From the IMG/VR virus record IMGVR_UViG_3300029319_000420, positions 1-26,368 of that record: 26,368 nucleotides of DNA. One strand, given 5' to 3'. The DNA comes from a virus. Numbering within the stretch: position 1 is the stretch's first letter; each line of letters starts with the position of its first letter. The translations under genes and the position numbers were made by a program. Shown piece after piece: positions 11,696 through 23,961 of this stretch. The notes under the pieces were generated by a model. It saw only the letters and a list, made by a program, of their open reading frames with translations. It ran no database searches and was not told where the DNA came from.

Positions 11696-12331
11696 ATGGC
11701 AAGTGGAGATACTAATATTACAATTTGCAACCAGGCATTAAATTTACTTGGTTCAGATACTATTTCATCATTTACAGATACAACAAATGATGCTGCCTCT
11801 GTTTGTAATAATATTTATGAAACTGTAAAAAGAAAAACTTTGTCAATGTACCCCTGGTCATTTGCAATAGTAAAAGAACAATTAAATAAATCAGCCGGAG
11901 TTACACCAGTTAATGAATGGACTAATCAATTTGTATTACCATCTAACGCAGTATCCGGCACACCACACCAAGTTTACAATTCCACTTCTACAAGAATATT
12001 ACCAATCCAAAGTTATGAATTAATCTACACATCATCTGGCCCAGCGATTGTAACTAATGAAGAAAATATTTATGTTGATTATGTTAGTTCAGTCGTAACA
12101 GAAGGTCTTATGCCTTCTTACTTTGTACAATTACTTGTTTACATGATGGCTTGGCATTTAGCTGAACCAGTAACAGACCAAATAACAAAATCTGATTATT
12201 GGAGAAAGATAACAGTTGGGACTGAAAGTGAGAATGGTAGGGGTGGGTATTTCAGACAAGCCATGAATATTGATGGAAGGGGTAAACCAAACTATTCAAT
12301 AGTTGATTTCCCATTAACAGATGTTAGATAA
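11696..12331 (+). CDS. tail tubular protein A, T7 gp11-like (211 aa)
   Basis: The adaptor ring that joins the portal to the tail nozzle. It begins with the characteristic CNQALNLLGSDTISSFTD (11-28) and continues DAASVCNNIYETVKRKTLSMYPWSFA (31-56), both hallmarks of the gp11 family in which a helical bundle contacts the portal. The central part is a beta region and the C-terminus has YFVQLLVYMMAWHLAEPVTDQ. Length fits (T7 gp11 196 aa). AAAGGA precedes the ATG just after the terminator hairpin; the stop overlaps the tail tube B start by one base. Confidence 0.92.
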   Translation: MASGDTNITICNQALNLLGSDTISSFTDTTNDAASVCNNIYETVKRKTLSMYPWSFAIVKEQLNKSAGVTPVNEWTNQFVLPSNAVSGTPHQVYNSTSTRILPIQSYELIYTSSGPAIVTNEENIYVDYVSSVVTEGLMPSYFVQLLVYMMAWHLAEPVTDQITKSDYWRKITVGTESENGRGGYFRQAMNIDGRGKPNYSIVDFPLTDVR

Positions 12332-14628
12332 TGAGCAGAGCAGTAACTATACAATCAAATTTCACTACTGGCGAAATAGACCCATTATTAAAATCAAGAA
12401 TAGATATTAACCAATATTACAACGCATTAGAAACAGCTAGGAATGTTTTAGTACAGCCACAAGGTGGTATTGAAAGACGACCTGGTTTACAATTTTTATT
12501 TGAAATACCAAGTGCTGCTAATCCACAAAATGGAATGAAGTTAGTGCCTTTTGAGTTTTCTACTACACAAAGTTATATGCTTTTGTTTGTACATAATAGA
12601 ATGTACATTTTTAAAGACAAAGAATTAGTAACTAATATAAACTCTAGTGGTAATGATTATCTTACAACTACTATAAGTGCTACAACATTAGCGACTATGG
12701 ACTTTACACAATCAGCAGATACTTTGATTGTTGTACAAGAAGATATGGCTCCTAAACAAATAGTTAGAGGTGCATCACACTCAAGCTGGACTATATCCGA
12801 TATAACATTTGAGCATACACCTTTTTTTGCTTTTACTCTCTCAACTACAACTATCAATCAAACTATAACTCCATCGGCTGTGGATGGAAATATCACACTT
12901 ACAGCCGGTGGTTCATTCTTTAACTCTGGCCATGTCAATCAATTTGTAGAGGCTAACGATGGTTTGGGTAGAGCAAGAATTACAAGATTTGTAAGTAACA
13001 CATCTGTTGAGGCTATTGTTGAAATACCTTTTTTTAATACAAGTGCAATAGCATCTGGCTCAACATTTTTAGAAAGTGGATATGAAGTTACCTGGTCTGG
13101 CTCAAAAGGCTATCCTCGTACAACAACCTTCCATGAGGGGAGACTATATTTTGGTGGAGCTAAGTCTAGGCCAAACACAGTTTTTGCATCAAGAGTAGGT
13201 AGGTTCTTTGACTTTAATCCTGGAGAGGGATTAGATGATGATAGTATAGAAGTTACACTAGCAACTGATAACACAAATGCTATCGTTGGTATGTTCTCTG
13301 GTAGAGACTTACAAATTTTTACAAAAGGTGGAGAGTTCTTTTTACCTCAATCATCTCTGGACCCTATCACACCATCTAATGTTGTAATCAATGGTGCAAC
13401 AAGAAGAGGTGCAAAAGAAGGTATTAAACCAGTAGGTGCAGAAAGTGGTACTTTGTTTATACAAAGAGCTGGTAAAGCATTAAGAGAGTTTTTGTTTAGT
13501 GATGTAGAGTTATCTTACATATCAAATAATATTTCTTTACTATCTTCTCATTTATTAAAAAATCCAACAGACATGGCTCTTAGAAAAGCAACATCTACAA
13601 CAGATGGAGACTTGTTAATATTAGTCAATTCAACAGATGGTTCTTTAGCAACATATTCCATCTTGCGAGGCCAAAATGTCATAGCACCTAGTCTATCTAC
13701 AACAGATGGCACATTTGAAAAAGTAGGTGTAGATGTGGACCAAATTTATTTTGTTATTAAAAGAACAATTAATAGTTCAACAAAATATTATGTAGAATGT
13801 TTTAATGATGATAATACAACTGATAGTTCTAAATTATATAGTGGCTCAAGTTTACCAAACGCATCTACAATTACAAAAACAGTAACAGTACAAAATGTTT
13901 CTGGTTCTAATAAATATTTTATAGATGGTGCACAACAACCAACATTAAATTTATACGAAGGTCATACTTACAAGTTTGACCAATCAGATGGTACTAATGC
14001 TACACATCCTCTTAGATTTTATTTAGATGCAAACAAAACAACTGCTTATACTACTGGGGTAACTACCAATGGTACTCCAGGACAAGCTGGGGCCTATACT
14101 CAAATAGTAGTAGCATCTGGAGCCCCTACTCTTCATTATCAATGTTCAGCTCATGCAGCTATGGGTGGTATTGCAAATACACCAGTAGGTGCTGAACTAA
14201 CTGGACTTTCTCATTTAGAAGGTAAAACATTAAAAGTTATTATAGATGATAGTATGCACAACGATATTACAGTCTCTAGTGGAAAAGCTATTATAACAAC
14301 ACTACCAACAAGTTATGTAGAGGTAGGTATAAATTATACTCCAGAAGTTAAAACACTTCCGGTTGAATTAAAACTATCAAGTGGAAATATAGTTGCACAA
14401 AAAAAAAGAATTGTAGAGGCAACAGTAAATCTTTACTTGTCGCAAAACTTAACATTGAATGGTAAAGACTTCTCATTTACAGTAGGTAGTGGCCAGTTTT
14501 TTACTGGAAAAAAAAGAAGGAAACCTATGTTAGGATTTGATAGAGAAGGACAAATGACATTCTCCCAGTCTAGTCCATTATTTTTTACATTATTGGGAGT
14601 AGAATATAAAGTGAGTGTAGGACAATAA
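12331..14628 (+). CDS. tail tubular protein B / tail nozzle, T7 gp12-like, with inserted cupredoxin-like domain (765 aa)
   Basis: The six-copy nozzle at the tail tip. Family landmarks: N-terminal QSNFTTGEIDPLLKSRIDINQYYNALETARNVLVQPQGGIERRPG-type start (8-52), GRLYFGGAKSRPNTVFASRVGRFFDF (about 271-296), ATDNTNAIVGMFSGRDLQIFTKGGEFFL (about 310-338), and near the end TGLSHLEGKTLKVIIDD and YTPEVKTLPVEL. Between about residues 514 and 617 lies an extra domain with a His559...Cys605-x2-His608-x2-Met611 pattern like a type 1 copper site (listed separately); it falls in the short loop that normally joins the YVECFNDD segment to TGLSHLEGKT. The stop is followed closely by the next ATG. Confidence 0.93.
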   Translation: MSRAVTIQSNFTTGEIDPLLKSRIDINQYYNALETARNVLVQPQGGIERRPGLQFLFEIPSAANPQNGMKLVPFEFSTTQSYMLLFVHNRMYIFKDKELVTNINSSGNDYLTTTISATTLATMDFTQSADTLIVVQEDMAPKQIVRGASHSSWTISDITFEHTPFFAFTLSTTTINQTITPSAVDGNITLTAGGSFFNSGHVNQFVEANDGLGRARITRFVSNTSVEAIVEIPFFNTSAIASGSTFLESGYEVTWSGSKGYPRTTTFHEGRLYFGGAKSRPNTVFASRVGRFFDFNPGEGLDDDSIEVTLATDNTNAIVGMFSGRDLQIFTKGGEFFLPQSSLDPITPSNVVINGATRRGAKEGIKPVGAESGTLFIQRAGKALREFLFSDVELSYISNNISLLSSHLLKNPTDMALRKATSTTDGDLLILVNSTDGSLATYSILRGQNVIAPSLSTTDGTFEKVGVDVDQIYFVIKRTINSSTKYYVECFNDDNTTDSSKLYSGSSLPNASTITKTVTVQNVSGSNKYFIDGAQQPTLNLYEGHTYKFDQSDGTNATHPLRFYLDANKTTAYTTGVTTNGTPGQAGAYTQIVVASGAPTLHYQCSAHAAMGGIANTPVGAELTGLSHLEGKTLKVIIDDSMHNDITVSSGKAIITTLPTSYVEVGINYTPEVKTLPVELKLSSGNIVAQKKRIVEATVNLYLSQNLTLNGKDFSFTVGSGQFFTGKKRRKPMLGFDREGQMTFSQSSPLFFTLLGVEYKVSVGQ
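13870..14178 (+). other. cupredoxin-like (blue copper type) domain inserted in the tail nozzle protein
   Basis: About 100 codons encode a beta-rich domain starting TITKTVTVQNVSG and including PTLNLYEGHTYKFDQSD, THPLRFYLD with His559, and LHYQCSAHAAMGG with Cys605, His608 and Met611. Cupredoxins coordinate copper by an early His in the strand after the 'G..Y.F' hairpin and a late Cys-x2-His-x2-4-Met loop; the x2/x2 spacing equals that of amicyanin. All four ligand residues are therefore in place in the expected order. Similar YQCS.H..MGG text is known to me from other marine phage structural proteins. Copper binding itself is inferred. Confidence 0.75.
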
Positions 14629-15079: not shown

Positions 15080-17013
15080 TGGCACAAAGAAATGTTTATA
15101 AATCTCAGTTACCTGGTTTTAGAGCTAGTGATATACAACTATCATTTGCTAATTACAAAGCCCAAGCAGATGTAGCTGGAGAGATTATAAAAAGAATAGA
15201 TACTGTATCTGACTTTGCACTTAAAAAAGTAAACGAACAAAAAGTAGAAGAGGGTACAAAGTATGGTGTAGAAAATGCACCAACATTAAAACAAGTTTTA
15301 GAGACAGACGCAGAGGACAGAAAACAATTATTTAAAGATAATAAAACTATATTTAACAAAGCTGCACAAGCTGCACAAATGGGTTTTGTTATAAATGAGA
15401 TGACTATTGCTGCACACAGAGATTTTGCAAATGCAGAGATAGAGGCTAACGAAAACAATCAATCTCAAACAATGTATTTACAAACATTGTCAAATATAAA
15501 AGATGAATATGTAAAAGTTGTATCAAGCATAAATCCAGATTTAGCTGTTGAGTTAGATGCTAAGTTAGCAACAAAAGCAAACACTTACTATACAAGCTAT
15601 ATTGATAAAAAAATAAAAGAAAATGCAACACAAACAAAAGTGTTGGCTATGGGTTTTGTTACTCAAGAACTTAACGATTTAGAAAAAATATTTAGTGAAA
15701 CTAACAATTACATAGATGATAAGACTGGAGACCAGGTTTATGTTAATATAGAAAACAGAATATTAGCAAAAAGAAAAAACCTAAATAATTTTATTGCTAA
15801 ACAAAAGTTTACTGTTGCTGAGGCTACAACAATACTTAATAACTTTGATAAAGCAGCTACGAGAGTAAAAACAGATTTTGTTATAAACTTTGTAGAAACA
15901 TACTCAGAGGGTCGTGTTGGTGGTTACAATCTATACTCAAAAATGGCTGCACCAGATGGAAAAATTATTAGTGATAAAAAACAAAAGGAAGGTTTAGCAA
16001 CTGATGATGATATAATTTATTTTGAGAAAGCTGCTATGGTCCAGGAAATACTTATGACATCTGATAACAATGTAAAACAAGAAATATTAAAAGATGTAAA
16101 AGCAGTTTTAGATGATAGAGAAAGTGTCAATAAATCAAAACAAGATGCTATAAATTTAGAATTTGAAAACATATATAAACAAGCATCTATTGATTTTATA
16201 ACTGCATACGAAAATAGAGATACAGCCGGAATGAATAAAGCACTTGGTGTAATACAAATTGCAAAACCAGAAAAATACGAAAGCTATGCAAAAGGCATAA
16301 CTGGTTTTGATTTATCTCAAAACCCTAATACAATATCTACACCAGGTCTTAAAGATGATTTACAATTAAAAATAAATTTGGGAGAGATTAAAGATTTTAG
16401 CGATATACTTGCATACAATGGAACTGGTATAGAAACAGTAGATGGACAAAGGTTTGTCTTATCTCCAGGGGATACTAACACATTATTAGGAGACTTTAAA
16501 ACTCTACAAGATAAAGATATGCAAGATGGTATTAAGTTAGCAAAAGAATTATTGCTTGAAGGTGTAGAGCCACAAATACTTAGATTAAGTACAAAAGTAC
16601 AAGATTTAGAAAAACTTAAAAAATATAATATGGTCGTTGCAGATTTAATTAGAGCAAAAAGAAGTGGTCAAAGAATGGATATTGAAAGTTTTGTTAAAAA
16701 GACTGTTGAAGATGCAAACAAAAAAATAGAAGAAGAAAAAAAAGCAAAACAAGCAGAAGGTTTATCTGAGTACATGGCATTTAGTGAGATGACTTATACA
16801 AATAGTAAAGGTGTTGAAATACAATTACCACCTCTTGATGAAAACTTAACAAGTGTAGGTGCGATGCAATATCACGCATTTTTTACCTTCTATAAAAATA
16901 ATTTAAAACTTACAAAAGATATTGATGCTTTTAATGAAGGTGTATTTGCAACAGATGCAAGAATGAAAGCATTTGAACAAGCAAGGAGATTTTTTAAAAA
17001 TTATGGCAACTGA
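15079..17013 (+). CDS. internal virion protein, T7 gp15-like position (644 aa)
   Basis: A long, almost wholly helical protein, rich in Lys, Asp, Ala and Gln, with no transmembrane segment. It starts MAQRNVYKSQLPGFRASDIQLSF and has coiled-coil-prone stretches around 75-190 and 535-565 (KKTVEDANKKIEEEKKAKQAEG). Order and composition match the second ejection protein that forms part of the periplasmic channel in T7 (gp15, 747 aa). No enzymatic motif was found. The ATG shares a base with the gp14-like stop; the 3' end overlaps the next gene by 11 bases. Confidence 0.75.
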   Translation: MAQRNVYKSQLPGFRASDIQLSFANYKAQADVAGEIIKRIDTVSDFALKKVNEQKVEEGTKYGVENAPTLKQVLETDAEDRKQLFKDNKTIFNKAAQAAQMGFVINEMTIAAHRDFANAEIEANENNQSQTMYLQTLSNIKDEYVKVVSSINPDLAVELDAKLATKANTYYTSYIDKKIKENATQTKVLAMGFVTQELNDLEKIFSETNNYIDDKTGDQVYVNIENRILAKRKNLNNFIAKQKFTVAEATTILNNFDKAATRVKTDFVINFVETYSEGRVGGYNLYSKMAAPDGKIISDKKQKEGLATDDDIIYFEKAAMVQEILMTSDNNVKQEILKDVKAVLDDRESVNKSKQDAINLEFENIYKQASIDFITAYENRDTAGMNKALGVIQIAKPEKYESYAKGITGFDLSQNPNTISTPGLKDDLQLKINLGEIKDFSDILAYNGTGIETVDGQRFVLSPGDTNTLLGDFKTLQDKDMQDGIKLAKELLLEGVEPQILRLSTKVQDLEKLKKYNMVVADLIRAKRSGQRMDIESFVKKTVEDANKKIEEEKKAKQAEGLSEYMAFSEMTYTNSKGVEIQLPPLDENLTSVGAMQYHAFFTFYKNNLKLTKDIDAFNEGVFATDARMKAFEQARRFFKNYGN

Positions 17014-18328
17014 TGATTTAAACAAATTTATAGAGGCAGAATACGAGCAAAAAGCTAGTGGAGAAGAGGATATTGTTCTTAGATATGATAGTAATGGTTT
17101 TGGAACAACAGTAGATAAAAGTTTCTTTGAGTATGTAAATAGCTTTGCATCAGATGTAGCAACAACAGCATCGGAGGAAGTATTAAGTCCGGCTGTAACT
17201 GGTTTGACTAAGATTGTAGAAAATGCTGCAAGTCTTGGTATAGCTGGTGCAGAGATGTTAGGATTAGCAGAAGAGGGAACAGTAGATGAGTTTGCAAAAG
17301 TTTTTGATGAGTATGTATATGCAAACATAGATAAAACATTGGGCGAACCAGATAGTATGTTTGGCAGATTATTAGAGGGTGTTGTTCAATATGGTACACC
17401 TGGTTTTGGTTATTATAAATTATTTAGTAATGTGATGAAACTGCCTGGTATGGCAAACTGGGCTCGTAAAGCTGTGATTGCTGGTCAAGCAGAAGTAGCA
17501 ACTGTATTGACTGCTCAAGACCCAGTTGATGGTAATTTTGCAACTGCAATATCTGAGTTGTTTGGTATTGAAAGAGACAAAGCAGATAATGTAGCAAGAG
17601 AGTTTTTTAATTACATCGCAAGTCCAGAAGAAGAAACAACAGCAAGGTCTGTATTTGAAAGTAGATTAAAAGGTATTATAGCAGATGCACCATTAGCAAT
17701 AGGTATAGAAGGTACTATCATGTTGTTAGGAGCAACTGGTAAATTGTTTAGAAAAGATAAAACAAAAACACAAATAGATGATGTTACACAAACAAAGATA
17801 AGAGAAACTCAAGCTAATAATTTATTTAATGCTATAACTAGATTAAAAAAAGATGAGGGTTTTTCAATAACACTTGATGGTAAAGATGTAACAGAATTGT
17901 ATAAAGAAGGTTTTATGGTAGCACCTTTGAAAAAGACAGAAATCATATTTGATAGTAAAACATTTAGTTTAGCAGATGCACAAAAACTACTAGATAATGT
18001 AGAGGCTTTAGAAAAAGCTACAAAAGGCAGATATAAAGAGGTTTATGCTGGGGCCTGGTTTAACCCAGATGATGGTAAATTTTACCTAGATGCGTCAGTA
18101 AGAATTGACAATAAAGCTGATGCTCTGTATATTGCTAATCAAGGAGAACAACTAAGTATCTTTAATATTAAAGATTTTAGTACAATAAAAACAGATGTCG
18201 GTATCCAAGAACTCAAACAAAGTGGAACTTATAGCCCTACCAAAAACTTCATCCAGGGAATTGAGACTAAAGGCCTTGGTAGAAGGTTTGAAAAAGCAAG
18301 GGTGGCAACTCAAGGAGGAACAGAATAA
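17003..18328 (+). CDS. internal virion protein of unknown class (441 aa)
   Basis: ATG at 17003 is preferred over an in-frame TTG at 16973; AGGAG stands 13 bases upstream, rather far, so coupling to the preceding gene is likely. The first half is Ala/Gly-rich with hydrophobic helices (around 60-95, 110-165 and 230-250, the last GIEGTIMLLGATGKLF) typical of segments that insert in or lie along membranes; the second half is mixed alpha/beta (FSITLDGKDVTELYKEGF; GAWFNPDDGKFYLDASVRI). It lies between the gp15-like and the large internal protein, so it is probably ejected with them. It has no obvious T7 counterpart; it could be a piece split from a gp15/gp16-type protein. Confidence 0.65.
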   Translation: MATDDLNKFIEAEYEQKASGEEDIVLRYDSNGFGTTVDKSFFEYVNSFASDVATTASEEVLSPAVTGLTKIVENAASLGIAGAEMLGLAEEGTVDEFAKVFDEYVYANIDKTLGEPDSMFGRLLEGVVQYGTPGFGYYKLFSNVMKLPGMANWARKAVIAGQAEVATVLTAQDPVDGNFATAISELFGIERDKADNVAREFFNYIASPEEETTARSVFESRLKGIIADAPLAIGIEGTIMLLGATGKLFRKDKTKTQIDDVTQTKIRETQANNLFNAITRLKKDEGFSITLDGKDVTELYKEGFMVAPLKKTEIIFDSKTFSLADAQKLLDNVEALEKATKGRYKEVYAGAWFNPDDGKFYLDASVRIDNKADALYIANQGEQLSIFNIKDFSTIKTDVGIQELKQSGTYSPTKNFIQGIETKGLGRRFEKARVATQGGTE

Positions 18329-21390: not shown

Positions 21391-22497
21391 ATGGCAACCT
21401 TTAATATAAATGATGTAGCAAGAAGAGCACAATTTACTGTTGGGTCTAGTGGACAAATAGGTCCTTATGCTTTTAGTTTTCAAGTAAATGCTGCATCTGA
21501 ATTACAAGTATATCAAAACGATACTTTGCTAACTGATAGTGTTCAATACAATGCTACTATATCATCCTCAGATGGAACTGGCTCTATAAAATTTATTGAT
21601 AATTCTGGCTCTGGTGGAACTAATTACACTCCATCAACTGGAGATATAATTACAATTATTGGAGACCAGCCATTATCAAGAACAACTGTATTTCAAGTTG
21701 GACAAACAAATAACCCAACAACTTTAGAAACAGAATTTGACAACATAGTCATAAGACAACAACAATTAAAAGAAATTACAGATAGGTCTATACAATTAAA
21801 ACCTTCTACTACTAGAACTGTAACTGGTACTGGCACAAATGGTCCAGTATTTTTTCCAGAGTTAGCTGCTAACAAAATACTTTCTGTTAATAATGCTGGT
21901 AACGCATTAGTTATGACAAAAGAAATAGGCTCATTCAAAGGTAACTGGTCAGCTAGTACAGCTTATTTTGAAAGAGATATTGTAAAAGATACTAGCACTA
22001 ATAATATTTTTATAGTAAACAGCGACCACACATCCTCTGGTTCTCAACCTTTAACAACTAATGCAAACTCAGCTAAATACGATTTATTAGTAGATGCTGC
22101 AACAGCTACATCTGCTAGTACAACTGCGACTGCTCAAGCTACAATAGCAACGACAAAAGCTAATGAAAGTGCTGCAAGTGCAGCCTCAGCTTTATCACAT
22201 AAGAATGATGCTGAAACTGCAAAAACAGCAGCAGAGGCAGCTAAAACAGCAGCCGAAACAGCTAAGAATACTGCTGAAACTTTTTTAGATAATTTCCAGG
22301 ACCAGTATTTAGGAGTACAATCATCCGAGCCCTCAACAGATTTAGATGGCGACCCTCTTACAGAAGGCGATATTTATTTTAATTCAAATAGTAACAAGCT
22401 ACGAATATTTAGTGGTGGACAATTTAAAGATGCAGCAGTAGATACATCTGCATTTGCTCAAGCTGGATTTGCAATAGCGATGGCAGTAGCATTATAG
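21391..22497 (+). CDS. tail fibre with T7 gp17-type N-terminus (368 aa)
   Basis: Residues 1-150 are the T7 gp17-like tail-attachment domain (FTVGSSGQIGPYAFSFQV, LQVYQNDTLL, TGDIITIIGDQPLSRTT, FDNIVIRQQQLKEITDRSIQL). Then a VNNAGNALVM linker (about 165-175), a CBM-like YERDIV module (about 181-238), an Ala/Thr/Glu coiled coil (about 255-300, KTAAEAAKTAAETAKN) that trimerises the shaft, and a final beta module with FLDNFQDQYLGVQSSEPSTDLDGDPLTEGDIYFNSNSNKLRIF. It is shorter than T7 gp17 (553 aa) and has no receptor-binding tip of its own, so the tip is likely supplied by the following small genes. Confidence 0.9.
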   Translation: MATFNINDVARRAQFTVGSSGQIGPYAFSFQVNAASELQVYQNDTLLTDSVQYNATISSSDGTGSIKFIDNSGSGGTNYTPSTGDIITIIGDQPLSRTTVFQVGQTNNPTTLETEFDNIVIRQQQLKEITDRSIQLKPSTTRTVTGTGTNGPVFFPELAANKILSVNNAGNALVMTKEIGSFKGNWSASTAYFERDIVKDTSTNNIFIVNSDHTSSGSQPLTTNANSAKYDLLVDAATATSASTTATAQATIATTKANESAASAASALSHKNDAETAKTAAEAAKTAAETAKNTAETFLDNFQDQYLGVQSSEPSTDLDGDPLTEGDIYFNSNSNKLRIFSGGQFKDAAVDTSAFAQAGFAIAMAVAL

Positions 22498-22850: not shown

Positions 22851-23171
22851 ATGGGATACATAGGAAATCAAATTTTTACTGGTGTTATAACATCAAGTGA
22901 TAGTATTGATGCTGGAGTAATAGAGATTACAGATTTATCTGCATCAGCTCAAGCTCAACTTGGTACTGCTGAGTTATATGGTTTTACAAAAACAAATGGC
23001 TCTGGTAGTCAAAAAGAAGATTTAATATTAACTAAGACTGCTGGAACAGATGATATATCTGTGGCTAATAATGATGGCACACAATCAGATTTATATGATG
23101 AAAGTTTTATAGCCAAGTCTGGATTAACATTTACTGTTAATATTGATGGCGAATTGGAGGTAACAATATAA
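22851..23171 (+). CDS. small fibre-type protein with C-terminal repeat module (106 aa)
   Basis: AGGAG is 5 bases before the ATG. The N-terminal part (MGYIGNQIFTGVITSSDSIDAGVIEITDL) is a fibre-type beta segment; residues 40-106 form a module (AELYGFT...DESFIAKSGLTFTVNIDGELEVTI) repeated at the C-terminus of the 190-aa protein two genes on. Most likely a tail-fibre or tip subunit. GGAGG near its 3' end serves the next gene, which starts on its stop codon. Confidence 0.65.
   Translation: MGYIGNQIFTGVITSSDSIDAGVIEITDLSASAQAQLGTAELYGFTKTNGSGSQKEDLILTKTAGTDDISVANNDGTQSDLYDESFIAKSGLTFTVNIDGELEVTI
22968..23168 (+). repeat. C-terminal fibre module, copy 1
   Basis: Codes for a 67-residue module similar to that at 23767-23958. 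Shared features are AE-L/V-YGFT-x-T at the start and F/I-x-A-x-SG-x-TF-T/S-V/L-N-x3-G-x-L-x2-TI at the end, with a charged variable middle. Protein-level repeat, not a DNA-level one. Confidence 0.6.
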
Positions 23172-23389
23172 TGGCTCTTACAAGATTAGGTTCACTAGCT
23201 GCAACAAATTTAGTATTAGGTGGTAATGTAGGTACAGAGGGAGATGCTTATAAAAATTACAATGCTATTACAAGTAATGTAACTCTTACTATGGAGGCAT
23301 CTAAAAACTATTTTTTAAGAGGACCATTAACAATTAACAATGGTGTTACATTCACTATTGCTGGAACTGGGGAGTTAAAAATAATATAA
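23171..23389 (+). CDS. small fibre-type protein (72 aa)
   Basis: Starts on the previous stop codon with GGAGG about 10 bases upstream and ends on the next start. The sequence begins MALTRLGSLAATNLVLGGNV and ends with NYFLRGPLTINNGVTFTIAGTGELKII, short hydrophobic strands alternating with Asn/Thr turns, as in beta-helical or spike-like fibre tips. Part of the coupled fibre gene string; no enzymatic motif. Confidence 0.65.
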   Translation: MALTRLGSLAATNLVLGGNVGTEGDAYKNYNAITSNVTLTMEASKNYFLRGPLTINNGVTFTIAGTGELKII

Positions 23390-23961
23390 TGCCATACATA
23401 GGCCGAGGATTACAAACTGGAGAATACAAGCTCATAACATTAACAGAGAGCTTTGATGGTAATAGAACAGAATTTACTATGTCAGAGAGTGTACCATCTG
23501 AAAGAGTGCTTATGGTTATACTGTCTGGGGTCCTACAACATTGGGGAGAGGCTTTTACTGTATCTGGAAATAAATTAAATTTTTCTGCTGCCCCATCAAA
23601 TGGCGAAACAATCAAAATATTAAAGCTAGGAGATACTTTAAATATTGCTACTCCATCCCAAGGTACAGTAGGTGTAGCTCAACTATCTACAAGTGGAGTA
23701 TCTGCTGGTAAAGTATTTAAAGTAAATGATGCTGGTAATGCCTGGGAGTTAGGTAATGCAAGTTCAGCTGAGGTCTATGGATTTACAATGACAGATACTA
23801 ACTCTGATGGTGTATTAGATAGTTTACAAGTAACAACAACAAATGGTGGTCAAGACAATATAACAGCTACTCAGTATGCAGCCTTTGATGACAAGATTTT
23901 TGCTGCATCTGGATTTACTTTTAGTCTTAATAGTAGTGGCCATCTAATAGCAACAATATAG
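23389..23961 (+). CDS. tail-fibre protein with repeat module (190 aa)
   Basis: The N-terminal 80 residues (MPYIGRGLQTGEYKLITLTESFDGNRTEFTMSE-type start, VLMVILSGVLQ, FSAAPSNGETIKILKLGDTL) match a baseplate/fibre adaptor module common in marine phages. A linker QGTVGVAQLSTSGVSAGKVFKVNDAGNAWELG follows (about 87-124), and the last 64 residues repeat the C-terminal module of the 106-aa protein. Its start shares a base with the previous stop. Likely receptor-binding or adaptor subunit. Confidence 0.7.
   Translation: MPYIGRGLQTGEYKLITLTESFDGNRTEFTMSESVPSERVLMVILSGVLQHWGEAFTVSGNKLNFSAAPSNGETIKILKLGDTLNIATPSQGTVGVAQLSTSGVSAGKVFKVNDAGNAWELGNASSAEVYGFTMTDTNSDGVLDSLQVTTTNGGQDNITATQYAAFDDKIFAASGFTFSLNSSGHLIATI
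23767..23958 (+). repeat. C-terminal fibre module, copy 2
   Basis: Codes for the 64-residue partner of the module at 22968-23168. Ends and strand pattern are conserved while the middle (TNSDGVLDSLQVTTTNGG) differs. The DNA has diverged, so the duplication is old or the modules were acquired separately. Confidence 0.6.

Follow-up and report, generated by a model that had tools for sequence, protein, structure and literature searches.

The window, a stretch of 26,368 nucleotides of viral DNA analysed at its full length, carries an open reading frame (12331..14628, plus strand) encoding a 765-residue T7-type tail nozzle protein of the gp12-like family. The protein was matched by PF25675 Phage_nozzle (E 1.2e-9) with a score of 37.5 bits, above the curated cut-off of 27, by the tail protein family phrog_376 (E 6.7e-132) and, in profile searches, by the solved nozzles 8ck1_A (E 8.4e-68) and 9efk_M (E 1.6e-49). 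As expected for a T7-type nozzle, the gene order in the window is portal, capsid, adaptor, nozzle, internal virion proteins and fibre, with the gp11-like adaptor gene (11696..12331, plus strand; phrog_394, E 2.4e-31) adjoining that of the nozzle. The short tail fibre (21391..22497, plus strand; 368 residues; phrog_38058 tail fibre, E 2.3e-16) is without the cupredoxin module described below, which in some relatives lies close to the C-terminus of longer homologues of this fibre. Further downstream, the last ~47 residues encoded by ORF 23389-23961 resemble the C-terminus of long tail fibres in related phages (51-69%), and ORF 22851-23171 weakly shares the same end. It looks as if the fibre of the window is divided between a short anchor protein and separate small ones that end alike.

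When the nozzle was aligned with 80 homologues from viral contigs, the window and ten other loci (L081-L090) displayed 113 residues at a point where ~70 homologues have a linker of 7 (PSTTTVT and variants). This insert comprises residues 509-621 (13855..14193, plus strand). The closest nozzle lacking it (L091) is 95.1% identical outside the insert and has the seven-residue linker in its place. A preliminary description of this DNA had proposed that a domain interrupts the gp12-like protein where a short loop is normally found. The interruption is evident from the alignment, but the short loop is true of close relatives only: epsilon15, Pseudomonas YA3, pelagiphage Skadi-4 and the solved nozzle 8ck1 all have extra residues at about the same place. 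Because these residues are unrelated to the insert, the slot looks reusable. A different insert of ~110 residues, without a cupredoxin, was seen slightly upstream, near the propeller end, in the nozzles of L127, L128 and L143 (…TCTITVTDxxNIAxGxT…), and from these three nozzles there seem to be several slots for extra domains. Within the insert, the cupredoxin module spans residues 516-618 (13876..14184, plus strand), as delimited by an AlphaFold2 model, Foldseek and VIA-align 2 comparisons with the PDB and an alignment of 52 module copies. The limits given earlier, 13870-14178, were roughly correct but fell short at the 3' end, where the domain reaches about 14184 and the insert about 14193.

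The domain was modelled by AlphaFold2 using 52 diverse copies of the module, resulting in an eight-stranded structure with a pLDDT of 95.6 and a pTM of 0.88. The top PDB match was the N-terminal cupredoxin domain of a three-domain copper nitrite reductase (Foldseek E 8.8e-5), and VIA-align 2 superimposed 102 residues on the same domain with a Z of 10.4, an rmsd of 2.5 and 22% identity. Laccases and rusticyanin were the next structural matches in both programs. Plastocyanin and amicyanin were absent among the structural matches listed, which says nothing against either. The cupredoxin fold proposed in the preliminary description is therefore borne out at the level of prediction, as an eight-stranded cupredoxin-like barrel with cupredoxin chains leading the structural matches; the assignment is taken from the predicted model, and the strand order follows from the structural matches. 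In model numbering, strand 52-55 starts right after His559, strand 92-96 has Cys605 as its last residue, and the loop that follows holds His608 and Met611. This placement relative to the strands is the arrangement known from cupredoxins.

His559 (14005..14007), Cys605 (14143..14145), His608 (14152..14154) and Met611 (14161..14163, the proposed axial ligand), all on the plus strand, occupy the positions previously claimed for a copper site, with the C-x2-H-x2-M spacing confirmed. The order His, Cys, His, Met with a Cys-x(2-4)-His-x(2-4)-Met loop is that of type-1 (blue) copper sites. Among the 52 copies, which extend down to ~31% identity to the window, the only fully invariant columns were the four ligands, two tyrosines and one glycine. 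In contrast, the domain's two other histidines, 545 and 602, vary between copies. The codons of the His and Cys ligands vary synonymously (CAT and CAC for His559; TGT and TGC for Cys605). Some of the 52 copies came from a pattern that includes the Cys-x2-His loop; loci L179-L338 had been found by such a pattern, which makes their conservation of that loop circular. To remove this bias, a loop-blind scan was run in which the query, the first 80 residues of a divergent copy, lacked the Cys-His-Met loop. In the resulting 63 distinct copies the His-Cys-His set was kept in 63/63 and the methionine in 61/63. In the remaining two, the related copies L356 and L357, the loop reads C-x2-H-x2-H, so that histidine naturally takes the place of methionine at the proposed site. 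The variation of ligands among homologues with the insert that would have spoken against a copper site was not observed. Among the nozzle copies of the domain dN/dS was ~0.1, indicating purifying selection; because selection is combined with retention of the four ligands while His545 and His602 vary, the insert is more than a chance addition. The only other cysteine of the nozzle, Cys490, lies outside the domain, and an intradomain disulphide is therefore excluded. Judged from the model and the conserved ligand set, the domain quite probably binds copper, most likely as one predicted ion per copy held by His559, Cys605, His608 and Met611. Up to six copper sites per virion, the number suggested earlier, would fit a hexameric nozzle.

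The domain of the window had no Pfam or NCBIfam match of its own among the models scanned, PF00127 included. However, PF00127 weakly matched 8/52 module copies (best E 1.5e-4), and a bridge group, consisting of L436 and L437, which both pass the PF00127 cut-off, and a second domain in cyanophage MED4-213, linked the module to plastocyanins in profile comparisons (E 2.5e-12 and 1.9e-13, both single-pair E-values). Direct profile comparison of the module with plastocyanins gave E 1.6e-4, again a single-pair value. A PDB search with the single sequence of the domain returned no match, and a PDB profile search placed pseudoazurin first at a non-significant E of 0.2. Homology of the module to the plastocyanin/azurin family is supported, at the sequence level, by way of the bridge sequences, and the module appears to work like a PF00127 member without being filed as one, scoring below its cut-off.

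The beta-propeller region, tip excursion included, covers approximately residues 51-495 (12481..13815, plus strand), as judged by alignment with T7 gp12. Structural alignment paired nozzle residues 51-495 with the gp12 propeller (46-580), and profile comparison paired window residues 265-377 with gp12 351-461; the two agree on an offset of ~85 residues. The AlphaFold2 model of the full nozzle was weak (pLDDT 53) and served for the propeller boundary only. In T7 gp12 the beta-propeller leads into the outer fibre dock (PMC6702177). The insert starts ~15 residues past the propeller and therefore probably belongs to the fibre-dock region rather than to the tip, a placement that would set it on the tail exterior. 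The tail-tip site of the preliminary description was not supported and is judged unlikely, the insert following the propeller by domain order and by both gp12 alignments, with the full-nozzle model offering weak guidance.

On a tree of nozzle residues 1-410, presence and absence of the insert required five changes of state, suggesting that it has been gained or lost repeatedly in nozzles. In a tree of the domain itself, which has few supporting columns, the nozzle copies cluster together, near copies from other viral proteins; the simplest reading is therefore that the domain entered nozzles once and afterwards spread and was lost. Sliding nucleotide identity to L091 starts at ~96%, drops to 62-90% near the insert and recovers to 100% beyond it. 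The differing segment (13588..14430, plus strand; ~residues 420-700), with both ends 96-100% identical, is a probable recombined segment whose donor, to judge by the sequences compared, would be related to L082. A sister phage without the insert (L439) is >96% identical in most structural genes and >99% in capsid and terminase, whereas identity falls to 82% in the adaptor (11696-12331), 53% in a 451-residue ORF (16973-18328) and 61-68% in the fibre anchor (residues 1-175), beyond which the fibre (21391-22497) could not be aligned. The genes exchanged relative to this sister surround fibre attachment. Linkage of the insert to a short-fibre cassette was striking in one comparison but was rejected on hand counts over 48 records (2/4 versus ~4/25, p 0.18). 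In seven of the 41 insert-free records the module lies close to the C-terminal end of a long fibre that matches window ORF 21391-22497 at its N-terminus. A nozzle copy and a fibre copy were never seen together, but insert-bearing records with a complete fibre gene were few, and for this reason we make no claim of mutual exclusion.

The module was found in 49 phage records, nearly all from phages of marine cyanobacteria, Pelagibacter and Methylophilales, in proteins annotated as tail fibre, baseplate or structural protein. The hosts of the module-bearing viruses (Pelagibacter, Prochlorococcus, Synechococcus and Methylophilales) are among the most abundant ocean bacteria. One cyanophage structural protein (L171, a 1702-residue ORF) has a second cupredoxin-like copy at ~residues 857-1026, seemingly interrupted by another segment and with its regular ligand loop lost. 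In cellular contigs, the module ends collagen-repeat proteins with lipoprotein-like N-termini in marine Euryarchaeota, cadherin-repeat proteins with lipoprotein-like N-termini in Gammaproteobacteria and an Acidimicrobiaceae bin, and a 183-residue protein with a lipoprotein-like N-terminus in SAR86; in Flavobacteria and Photobacterium it lies within very large proteins. The combination in the euryarchaeal L280 and L297 of a lipoprotein-like start, collagen-type repeats and a terminal cupredoxin module is unusual in archaea. Since binned metagenomes and single-cell assemblies make up many of these genomes, the cellular labels may be wrong, and some Pelagibacter contigs, in which the module sits in a T7-type fibre (PF03906), are probably phage. 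The module, described earlier as a feature of the nozzle, is indeed present there but is not specific to it, being widespread in marine phage tails and on marine cell surfaces. It is mobile: marine phages have it in tail fibres, baseplates and structural proteins, and marine archaea and bacteria in lipoproteins and large proteins of the cell surface.

We propose that the insert is a mobile cupredoxin module that would sit on the tail exterior, within the fibre-dock part of the nozzle, would bind one copper ion per copy and up to six per virion, and may act as an accessory adhesion module helping the tail to hold cell surfaces or surface ligands. A display module for cell contact is the best fit because the metal site is conserved, the slot is changeable and the module recurs on exposed proteins of phage and cell surfaces. 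Granted the domain, the adhesion role, for which position and company are the only guides, stands at about even chances, and we hold the explanation as a whole, a copper-binding display module aiding contact between tail and cell, to be similarly balanced.

The main rival is a structural role, in which the module braces the fibre dock or fibre base and copper merely staples the domain, with no contact to the host. The inferred site in the fibre-dock region agrees with this role, as does the observation that, relative to the sister phage, divergence in the nozzle segment is accompanied by divergence in the adaptor (82% identity) and the fibre N-terminus (61-68%) but not in capsid and terminase (>99%). 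However, most relatives have the same slot without the module, which is also found near fibre C-termini and in surface proteins of cells, places without any dock, and we regard bracing as rather unlikely. A purely decorative Ig-like beta-domain, its metal site a relic or only structural, would be consistent with a nozzle slot that takes unrelated domains in other phages and with the two copies having His for Met. A relic site would be expected to drift, whereas the four ligands, two tyrosines and one glycine are fully invariant down to ~31% identity and His, Cys and His persist in all 63 loop-blind copies, leaving decoration with a low probability.

Two further explanations assign the metal itself an active part. 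Tail copper could be a lure recognised by metal-uptake or metal-handling proteins of the host, like iron in the Trojan (Ferrojan) Horse idea. Invariant ligands and the iron precedent proposed on marine phage fibres (PMC11705849) favour this possibility, but cellular copies of the module are on surface proteins and not obviously in uptake systems, and we consider a lure doubtful, to the same degree as decoration. Alternatively, the site might pass electrons or sense redox state and so trigger ejection, as could be imagined from the general role of type-1 copper proteins as electron carriers. No redox partner or enzyme domain lies beside the module in the carriers examined, and its repeated loss from nozzles indicates that ejection is possible without it. 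Electron transfer or a redox trigger, which has no specific support, is thus very improbable.

Returning to display for cell contact, we tentatively suggest that one copper-binding adhesion module may be common to marine phages and to the cell surfaces of marine archaea and bacteria, that virion copper might take part in attachment and that virions could form a pool of seawater copper. Searches of the open-licence literature turned up no paper that describes a cupredoxin as part of a phage virion. If copper is bound, the module is a metalloprotein site on phage tails that is named by no Pfam or NCBIfam model scanned, and copper would enter the debate about virions acting as metal ligands in seawater. 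Cultured phages such as Baldr, HTVC028P, Melnitz and S-TIM5 allow a direct test of whether metals have a role in phage adsorption.

The window nozzle shares its family and propeller with T7 gp12, 8ck1 (Carin 1) and 9efk (LME-1), none of which showed a sequence match to the cupredoxin module in PDB sequence and profile searches; 8ck1 has ~107 other residues near the window insert site. Iron sites made of histidine pairs have been proposed on the fibres of T4 (gp37) and Alteromonas phage R22Y (PMC11705849). Like the module, these are metal sites proposed on marine phage tails, but they consist of HxH pairs along the fibre trimer, with neither a cupredoxin fold nor a Cys or Met ligand. The amicyanin ligand loop CTPHPFM (titles of 2vmj and 2ux6) has the same C-x2-H-x2-M spacing, a likeness that covers the loop only. 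The closest structural match, the N-terminal cupredoxin domain of the Hyphomicrobium denitrificans three-domain copper nitrite reductase (2dv6, 6tfo, 6tfd), belongs to a nitrite-reducing enzyme, whereas the window nozzle has no enzyme domain. Plastocyanin and azurin (PF00127) have the same ligand order, His...Cys-x2-His-x2-Met, but are soluble electron carriers, in contrast to the nozzle module, which would instead be displayed.
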